64,000 bases of DNA from Gordonia iterans (GTDB taxonomy: Bacteria; Actinomycetota; Actinomycetes; Mycobacteriales; Mycobacteriaceae): NCBI RefSeq assembly GCF_002993285.1, contig NZ_CP027433.1:186001-250000 (forward strand), in the 5' to 3' direction. The first letter of the stretch is position 1. Each line of letters opens with the position of its first letter. Made by a program: the position numbers and the translations under genes. Of this stretch, positions 52,747 through 54,153 are shown one piece after another. A model generated the notes under the pieces. That model was given only the letters and a program-made list of their open reading frames with translations, did not search any database and was not told where the DNA came from.

Positions 52747-52772
52747 GAAGCTCCTATAGATTTTCAAGTCGA

Positions 52773-53918
52773 TCAGGCCGCAATTTCGGGTTCGTCGACG
52801 CGGGGTTCGGCGGTGGTATCCGGTGTGGGCAGGAGTCGGAAGAGTTCACGTGCGAGGTAGCGCTTGAGGCAGCGGATGATTTCCCGTTTCGACAGGCCCT
52901 CGGCGGTGCGACGGGCGACGTAGTCGATGGTGGGCTGGTGCCAGCGCATCCGCACGATGACGACCCGGTACAGCGCGGCGTTGGCCTGGCGGTTCCCACC
53001 GCGATAGAGCCGGTGGCGGTTGTTGGTCTTGCCTGATCCGGCCGGGATCGGACAGGCGCCGCACATTTTGGCGAATGCCGCCTCGGACTTGATCCGGTTG
53101 GTGTTGTCGCCGGCGGTGATCAGCATCTGGGCCGCAGTGTCGTAACCGACGCCGACAGCCTCGATGAGCCGGGGTGCAGTGGCCGCGGTGAGTGTCTTCA
53201 ACGACGCGGCGTGAGCCTTGGCCTCTTCATGCAGCGCCAGCCAACGCTGCGCCATTGAGGACAACACATGTCGCATCGCGGCCTCTGGATCGTTCGGGAC
53301 AACTACGGCTGGTGCTCCACGGCGAACGGGTGGCAATGGGGTCGGGCCTTCCAGTGCCGCGCACGCGGTGATCAGCTTGTGGTCAGTGAGCTTCTCCAAC
53401 TTTGCGCGCAGCGCTTCGCTTCCCGTCGCGAGGGTCGCTTTGAGTGTGATCATGGTGGTGGTTCGGGCTTGGACGGCACCGTCGTAGGCAATCTTGACCA
53501 GCCTGATCGTCTCCACTGCACCATCGGCGGTCTTCGGTGCCGATAAGCCGTGGCCGGCCAGCAGCTGCCGAGCGGCGTGCTCGGCGTCAATGGTGTCGTT
53601 CTTCCCCGCGAGACGACGTTCGGCGGCCCGCGCGGGACGGGCGATCTCATGGACCTGGTGGCCGTGGTTGCGCAGGTAGCGGGCCAGGCCGACGCCGTAG
53701 GAGCCGGTGCCTTCAACGCCGAACCCGATCAGACTTCCGGCCGGGCCGACCAACGCCAGACAGAAGGTGACGAGCTCGTCGAATCCGGCGACCGTGGCCG
53801 AGATGACCACATCACCGAGTCGTCCGCCGAGACCGTCGATCGCGACTGCTACGTGGTTGTCCTTGTGGGTATCGACACCGATGATGACATCGTCACGGCG
53901 GAGCTGCATGCTGGACAT
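52773..53918 (-). CDS. IS110-family recombinase (DEDD transposase)
   Basis: 381 residues from ATG 53918. The RuvC-like DEDD acidic residues are in IGVDTHKDNH, FGVEGTGSYG and KNDTIDAEHAAR. The C-terminal Tnp domain with the serine nucleophile region reads ACPIPAGSGKTNNRHRLYRGGNRQANAAL. The gene looks intact. IS110 recombinases use a bridge RNA from the element's non-coding end to choose donor and target DNA. Confidence 0.93.
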   Translation of the reverse strand: MSSMQLRRDDVIIGVDTHKDNHVAVAIDGLGGRLGDVVISATVAGFDELVTFCLALVGPAGSLIGFGVEGTGSYGVGLARYLRNHGHQVHEIARPARAAERRLAGKNDTIDAEHAARQLLAGHGLSAPKTADGAVETIRLVKIAYDGAVQARTTTMITLKATLATGSEALRAKLEKLTDHKLITACAALEGPTPLPPVRRGAPAVVVPNDPEAAMRHVLSSMAQRWLALHEEAKAHAASLKTLTAATAPRLIEAVGVGYDTAAQMLITAGDNTNRIKSEAAFAKMCGACPIPAGSGKTNNRHRLYRGGNRQANAALYRVVIVRMRWHQPTIDYVARRTAEGLSKREIIRCLKRYLARELFRLLPTPDTTAEPRVDEPEIAA

Positions 53919-54153
53919 TAGGCTATGGATTCCTCTCTCGCATTCTGGGTCCATGGCTCAGCTGGCCGGAGTGGGCGGACAGGACTGCGATGAGACCCTG
54001 GTCGAGTCAGGCTCCTATCAGGTCACTGCCCACCCGGCCAGCAGCCTGGGTGAACGCCACCACCCGGGGTCGACAGGTCAACGCGAAGACACCCGCAGGG
54101 CCGGTCGTAGCAGGGGTCAGACACCAGGTGGTGACGCATACACGATCCTCGCA
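53919..54153 (-). ncRNA. Predicted IS110 bridge RNA region
   Basis: The 235-bp left end, read on the minus strand, holds four segments in the order expected of a bridge RNA. TACGAC (54109-54104) equals the IS3 sequence left of the insertion. TCGCGTTGA (54086 leftwards) is complementary to the sequence right of it. ATAGGAGC (54018-54011) equals the element's right end. TCGCAG (53990-53985) is complementary to its left end. The exact transcript limits are not visible. Confidence 0.7.

Follow-up and report, generated by a model that had tools for sequence, protein, structure and literature searches.

An IS110-group element between the Asp and Asn codons of an IS3 transposase gene in Gordonia iterans, with a predicted bridge RNA that matches its insertion site

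Bridge RNAs (PMC11208160, PMC11208158) and seekRNAs (PMC11187229) are established, and two insertion sequences, IS621 (PMC11208160) and ISEc21 (PMC11187229), are reported to be experimentally RNA-guided. ISEc21 insertion was traced to conserved codons of IS3 transposases and one redirected relative, ISMch6, was noted (PMC11187229). For IS621 a handshake is described in which the 3' guides pair, in addition, with the strand entering after exchange (PMC11208158). The element from Gordonia iterans described here resembles ISEc21 in its guide RNA from the upstream non-coding region (predicted here), in having the left half-site segment 5' of the right half-site segment, in targeting conserved codons within the catalytic region of IS3-family transposases, in insertion without target duplication and in having a naturally redirected relative (ISMch6 for ISEc21); it differs in that ISEc21 is enterobacterial and has its target put at the second D of DDE, whereas the present target lies at a D|N boundary (PMC11187229). 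With IS621 it shares a DEDD recombinase with a Tnp serine, a left-end bridge RNA (predicted here) with a target loop, then a donor loop and handshake bases, and a circle-junction promoter, which is here predicted from its boxes only (PMC11208160, PMC11208158). IS621 targets REP elements and has a CT core common to target and donor, whereas in our case at most one base is common at the join, and none in a Nocardioides relative (L052). The IS1111 group (ISPa11, and the attC-targeting ISKpn4 and ISPst6) likewise has RNA-guided DEDD recombinases, some of which target other mobile or repeated elements; the right-end guide RNA, subterminal inverted repeats and reversed order of target matches given for that group (PMC11187229) were not seen here. 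The element itself is of a known type, since ISEc21-like insertion into IS3 codons is known (PMC11187229). What seems new is that a whole lineage targets such codons and that its guides change from one transposase family to another: within the literature covered by our search, most subscription papers, preprints and supplements lying outside it, the accessible text (including that of PMC12500396, PMC12045711 and PMC7096625) described neither a D|N-boundary lineage nor retargeting between families.

The window, by which we mean the whole 64,000-nucleotide stretch that was analysed, contains a complete IS110-group element of 1407 bp on the minus strand (52747..54153). Its recombinase ORF of 393 aa (52773..53954, minus strand) has DEDD RuvC and Tnp domains according to Pfam (PF01548, 8.6e-18; PF02371, 2.9e-16), profile comparison and invariant residues, with D28, E81, D120, D123 and S307 unchanged in 14 aligned sequences, the window copy included. 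An alignment profile of the recombinase matched IS621 (8wt6, 5.6e-12) and ISCro4 (9t56, 9.3e-11) in the PDB, whereas a phmmer search of the PDB with the single protein, at E up to 1, gave no match. The layout is that of the IS110 group, with 199 nt of non-coding left end preceding tnp and a short right end of 26 nt, and the combination of a DEDD RuvC domain with a serine Tnp domain is likewise a trait of that group. A phage megablast search gave no match, and a search of viral contigs returned no relative of the element.

The element splits an IS3 element (52410-55275) into a 5' part with OrfA and OrfB up to DSYD (54154..55275, minus strand; rve, PF00665, 2.8e-19) and a 3' part that starts at NAMAEALNS (52410..52746, minus strand; rve_3, PF13683, 1.2e-9), and the sequence letters at 52407..52409 and 55276..55278 show the split IS3 as a whole to be bordered by a target duplication of 3 bp, which reads GAG on the minus strand. 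The insertion separates the Asp codon (GAC) of DSYD-NAMAE in OrfB from the Asn codon (AAC). An uninterrupted copy of the same IS3 (L009, genome 1362976-1364098) reads GACAGTTACGACAACGCGATGG (GACAGTTACGAC-AACGCGATGG), and because this copy shows the empty site, the inserted segment is exactly 52747-54153, with no base duplicated or lost; the initial annotation, made from the sequence of the window, had placed the target in the DSYD-NA codons of an IS3 transposase, as the uninterrupted copy bears out. Lack of target-base duplication, another IS110-group trait, is evident from the empty sites in L009 and in six copies in the L052 genome. The interrupted OrfB is deprived of the segment with the catalytic Glu, the site being the D|N boundary that precedes this residue. 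The IS3 composite is adjoined by a Mutator-type transposase gene (51063-52343, plus strand; PF00872, 1.8e-62), next to which a truncated relative was recognised by eye (50520-50966, minus strand), and this IS cluster lies beside a dnaB-like gene, a 739-aa ORF (55655-57874, minus strand) whose translation, on inspection, looks DnaB-like and includes an intein-like stretch that closes with ...VPTHN|STLAMD. Farther along the window, at 58833-59037, a 36-bp unit is repeated 5.7 times with 97% matches.

The non-coding left end (53955..54153, minus strand) was predicted to be a bridge RNA region from its fold and from structure conserved over 22 leaders, and it has the bridge-RNA trait of four guides, for left and right target and left and right donor. 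All lie on the minus strand: a left target guide, TACGAC (54104..54109), with the same letters as the IS3 to the left of the junction; a right target guide, TCGCGTTGA (54078..54086), the complement of the junction TC|AACGCGA; a left donor guide, ATAGGAGC (54011..54018), identical to the right end of the element at 52750..52757 (minus strand), the left half of the donor site, as located in the sequence letters; and a right donor guide, TCGCAG (53985-53990), which together with its handshake bases forms TCGCAGTC (53983..53990), the complement of the left junction GAC|TGCGA. The initial annotation had described four such segments in bridge-RNA order within the single non-coding end, taking TACGAC as identical to the left flank, ATAGGAGC as identical to the right end and TCGCAG as complementary to the left end; all were located as described, in the left end, the right end measuring 26 nt. 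Its statement that TCGCGTTGA complements the right flank was correct as to complementarity, but the TC that it assigned to that flank is the element's own, the empty site showing that the element itself ends in these two bases (GGAGCTTC|AACGCGA), and TC as target bases was accordingly rejected.

It is scarcely credible that the four matches are an accident of a GC-rich leader. The two 6-mers, TACGAC and TCGCAG, are weak alone, and in dinucleotide-preserving shuffles of the leader body the four guides, taken singly in their order, occurred in 560, 4, 32 and 928 of 20,000; the full set in the stated order occurred in none of the 20,000 and is beyond chance. Against chance also stand the recurrence of the same loop position in 55 of 73 loci and the agreement of guides and flanks in relatives, both described below. 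The pairing extends across the product junctions, TCGCGTTGA matching 9/9 bases of the right one (TC|AACGCGA) as against 8/9 of the empty target and TCGCAGTC matching 8/8 bases of the left one (GAC|TGCGA), which would be the appearance expected of IS621 handshake pairing (PMC11208158). ATAGGAGC ends two bases before the join, being followed by CT in the RNA and by TTC in the DNA; because the guide stops two bases short, and because it fails to track the right end in two relatives (L076, L085), left donor pairing is not a plain copy of that in IS621.

The initial annotation had named folding of 53919-54153 as a check, and the fold (-106.6 kcal/mol, z -2.08, with 5 of 200 shuffles equally good, which is modest alone) comprised two consecutive stem-loops with the guides in internal loops, so that the leader is predicted to form a two-loop RNA with the target loop 5' and the donor loop 3', as in bridge RNAs. 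Over 22 leaders, compensatory changes were present: in a consensus structure derived from the same alignment that tests it, 95.6% of cells were paired as against 88.2% in shuffles, 53 cells were changed on both sides as against 18.5 in shuffles, and at most 17 both-side changes were found when partner columns were slid by 1-3. Most of the covariation fell in the target-loop stem, whose 5' side (54124..54137, minus strand; helices 1-2) and 3' side (54055..54067, minus strand) both carry compensatory changes in the consensus structure, and the donor-loop helix was nearly invariant. Around the donor-binding loop and its flanking conserved bases (53977..54026, minus strand) a covariance model, R1, was built; an Rfam search of the window gave no family at gathering score. 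As for expression, a possible -35 box, TTGAAA (52762..52767, minus strand), which is TTGACA in the genomic copy L004 and in many relatives, and a possible -10 box, GAGGAT (54145..54150, minus strand), recognised by consensus resemblance only, would be brought to a spacing of 18 nt across the abutted ends. A promoter and terminator scan of 53600-54400, which covers the linear sequence and not the circle junction, returned none.

We consider it very probable that an insertion sequence of the IS110 group has entered the IS3 DSYD-NA motif at the boundary of its Asp and Asn codons, and that its left end gives rise to a bridge RNA, predicted here, that would direct the recombinase to this pair of codons in transposase genes of the IS3 type; what the sequences themselves display comprises the insertion point, the four ordered guides, the conserved two-loop structure, the joint change of guide and site and the recurrence of the IS3 boundary in most of the clade described below. 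By analogy with IS621 and ISEc21, the element would circularise, its abutted ends would make a promoter (TTGAAA, 18 nt, GAGGAT), the donor loop would act at the circle junction, and cleavage and exchange of the top strands would take place at a single point, between the two codons.

The position of that exchange was examined at the joins. The element ends in ...(A/T/G)TC and begins with TG or AG, while IS3 targets end in GAC or GAT before A; at IS3-type loci the left join was GAC in 33 and GAT in 2, and the right join was the element's TC in 29/29 (a count that includes the non-IS3 flank of L088). Six intact IS3 copies in the Nocardioides L052 genome read TTCGAT|AACGCG, and the L052 joins are GAT on the left and ATC|AAC on the right. 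Empty sites were available from the G. iterans genome and that of L052 only, the target bases elsewhere being taken from codons. In IS621 a core of two bases separates the cuts made in the two strands. The IS621-type CT dinucleotide common to target and donor, which is typical of IS621 and not family-defining, is absent here, and a common core of that kind was rejected in view of L052 and of the A/T difference at the join. Read in this way, the joins show a single crossover point, directly between the two codons, across the IS3-type loci; we infer that the products are resolved to the top-strand exchange and that target and element would need no common core base.

Relatives were obtained by a protein scan of one genome per species, which yielded 40, and more were added via plasmid searches; R1 had matches in 24 of the 396 genomes searched for the phylum and in 14 of the 201 for the family, the G. 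iterans genome included. Own-copy repeats (L002, L102, L126, L146, L150) and IS3 and short DNA matches (L006-L044) were left out, 33 loci, among them L111, L062 and L106, were dropped by left-end patterns, which were written after viewing the leaders but made no use of guide matches, and 75 loci were kept, 73 of them with a leader (L073 and L101 out). In G036, two donor-loop matches lie 227 or 326 nt apart on one contig (L138/L145 and L149/L151), and in G072 the L139 leader has its target-loop segment doubled; these are tandem copies of part of the bridge RNA.

The initial annotation had also pointed to other insertions as a check of the target guides, and their flanks matched. Over 59 distinct pairs of leader and left flank, the last 8 bases of the left flank agreed with the element's own leader at a mean of 6.64/8, compared with 5.57 (sd 0.089) when the pairs were permuted, a value reached in 0 of 20,000 permutations, and with 5.32 in a reverse-complement control. 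Among 19 distinct non-IS3 site types the corresponding values were 6.89 and 5.48 (0/20,000). The right flank agreed with the complement of the leader at 6.39 as against 5.98 permuted (2/20,000, 36 sites; same-strand control 5.36), a weaker signal that is perhaps due to most right flanks being alike. For the handshake, the bases of the right donor guide past the join agreed with the last three target bases at 2.74/3 compared with 2.24 (0/20,000) over 54 rows, in which L109 and L122, misplaced by the pattern, were retained, and at 2.10 compared with 1.35 (5/20,000) over 10 distinct non-GAC pairs. All of these permutations treat related elements as independent, so that the restricted sets give the safer figures. 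The best left-flank match lay 5-6 nt past a CTGAC-type anchor in 55 of the 73 loci, and the best 7-mer placement was off that loop position in the other 18 (L045-L052, L054, L076, L085, L089, L094, L105, L114, L123, L129, L131). Where left donor guide and right end differ from those of the window copy, the sequences show them changing together in four of the loci, L062 (ATAGAAGC) and L068, L069 and L072 (ATAGGGGC); in L076 and L085 the guide does not track the right end. It is thus very improbable that the site is chosen by the protein alone or by short end homology, with the RNA-like leader having a regulatory role: the fixed short motif GAC|AA at most sites would fit such a choice, yet leader segments track flanks in the 19 other site types and also in the sister elements L068 and L069, and IS621 and ISEc21 are reported to be RNA-guided by experiment (PMC11208160, PMC11187229).

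Within its own genome the IS110 element is present in four full copies and one partial copy, and the four full ones, in four places, all interrupt this IS3 at an identical pair of codons. These facts raise the possibility, to which we give somewhat less than even credence, that one IS110 entered one IS3 and that the composite was then copied by the IS3 transposase of an intact copy, in which case the copies would be uninformative on targeting. The four composites have intact IS3 ends and different target duplications (CAT, GAG, GCC, TCC), and the IS110 of L001 is identical to the window copy and that of L003 differs by one base, all as such copying would produce. The IS110 of L004, however, differs from the window copy at 30 positions even though the left half of its IS3 is identical to the window's, and because of this combination it arrived separately or was converted, separate entry most likely on the sequence evidence. 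The partial copy L005 (genome 579167-579430), internally deleted with both joins kept, lies at the homologous codons of a different IS3, and relatives show 35 distinct left flanks in 42 rows. Copying of the IS3 composite can account for part of the copy number, but not for L004 and L005.

In a tree of 76 recombinases built by a quick method, the window element fell in a clade of 46 rows (SH-aLRT 99), in which 35 rows had the IS3 boundary as their site, 1 another transposase and 10 something else, IS3 labels having been set by eye and that of L088 from the left flank alone. Counted by distinct left flanks (42 rows with a left flank), 27 of 35 were an IS3 DSYD-NA-type boundary, one of the 27 being a 7-base flank at a contig end. 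Among the named hosts, actinobacteria and alphaproteobacteria predominated; one record (L068) is acidobacterial, and cyanobacteria also occur, though at other sites. The IS3 elements struck were varied (SKGDSYD|NAMAE, VGSCFD|NAMAE, TGVCWD|NAMAE, GDSFD|NALAE). L088, from Lichenicola, has a guide-matched IS3 left flank (GNCWD) and a right flank that is not IS3, and its sequence indicates rearrangement or deletion past the element. Outside the tree, six gammaproteobacterial loci, L176-L181 (E. albertii, E. coli, Citrobacter, Rahnella, Aeromonas, Methylophaga), lie at RGNCWD|N(S/A)PMER, a site homologous to D|N, with left-flank agreement of 6/6 and right-flank agreement of 5/6; the L176 protein is 43.7% identical, and in the E. 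coli record of this group the protein is named 'IS110 family RNA-guided transposase'. From their sequences these loci may be ISEc21 or its kin, and since they sit at the homologous D|N boundary, the ISEc21 and window sites may be the same.

A minority of insertions of close kin, whose recombinases are about 90% identical to the one in the window, are exceptions to the IS3 boundary, L045 lying in a C5 DNA methylase gene and L054 in an Exo_endo_phos gene, both with joins of the form GAC|A-CGC. In the other exceptions in the clade, L059, L072 and the cyanobacterial group, guides and sites have changed together; the cyanobacterial loci L063-L067 have the site type TTAAGTTGAC|AGTACC, and those of them with a leader (L063, L065, L066) carry a left guide, AAGTTGAC, that matches it. 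Two assignments were dropped: L059 as a group II intron reading frame, made by eye, had no Pfam match on either side, and a transposase at the L063 site was set aside on account of a weak right-flank DDE_Tnp_4 match below the cut-off and a stop in the left flank at a distance of two codons from the join. Most sites outside the clade have no assignment, and those that have one are ordinary genes except in L111; the idea that the wider family as a whole hunts transposases was rejected when ten flank ORFs from nine other loci gave CbiX and DHDPS only, eight of the ten having no match and none being a transposase.

Several relatives are directed at transposases of other kinds. The recombinases of L068 and L069 are sisters with a common left donor guide, ATAGGGGC, and matching right ends; the L069 site is in an IS3 (GATTGCTTCGAC|AACGCG), and L068 has a left guide, CTCCGACGAC, identical to its own flank and a right guide, GGGTCTGA, that complements TC|AGACCC, and it interrupts a DUF772 transposase, one side of which matched at 3.1e-9 and the opposite side of which had no Pfam match; the right flank of L082 equals that of L068. 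L111, of the same class, has a left guide, GTGGGACAAC, identical to its own flank, reading VWDN, and a right flank LNTH... that matches DDE_3 (5.9e-12) and is one base off its right guide. The left side of L104 ends ...HTSND, with an rve match below the curated cut-off, and its right guide, GGGGTTGA, is the complement of TC|AACCCC; the contig ends before the right flank, and in its relative L081 the right flank AACCCC reads NPYSEA.

The initial annotation had suggested that the element may be adapted to jump into other IS elements. This part stood insofar as 27 of 35 distinct flanks are IS3 boundaries and other transposases are also struck; some insertions lie in ordinary genes, and either selection or supply of sites may underlie the focus. 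We put forward as a tentative reading, with the balance slightly against it, that the lineage is specialised on transposases, keeping guides against hard-to-change codons, the IS3 D|N pair first, and changing prey by rewriting its target guides (HTSND|NP in L104/L081; WDN|LNTH in L111; YFEG|LSSE in L068/L082). The opposing view, that IS3 transposases are merely the commonest copies of the motif and that there is no adaptation to transposons, we regard as rather unlikely. The insertions of close kin in a C5 methylase gene and an Exo_endo_phos gene, at the related motif GAC|A-CGC, fit this view, as do the assigned sites outside the clade, mostly not transposases. In the 4.0-Mb G. iterans genome, however, the exact 13-mer TACGACAACGCGA occurs once, inside the uninterrupted IS3, and within one mismatch at 12 places (1 exact, 11 with one mismatch), and of the five such places that were translated two are IS3 (the exact one and L158) and three are not, yet 5/5 IS110 copies lie in an IS3; in addition, relatives carry guides or sites for the three further transposase motifs.

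If the guides act as predicted, reading codons that IS3 transposases cannot easily change would likely let the element find its site in very many genomes, and insertion would likely disable an IS while sparing host genes; the element may also ride along when an intact copy moves the interrupted IS3. The relatives amount to a natural, many-times-repeated guide-rewriting experiment, in which close recombinases have the same donor guides, different target guides and known sites. They could be used to calibrate, for branches other than that of IS621, which bridge RNA positions govern pairing of the target, donor and handshake kinds, they supply recombinases whose right target guides measure about 8-9 nt, and the L052 insertion, with no common core base, makes the strand-resolution step testable from sequence. 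The findings suggest that, within one transposon lineage, guide RNAs are maintained against codons in the catalytic region of competing elements, and an IS110 lineage specialised on transposases, if real, would act in nature as an RNA-guided brake on other transposons.
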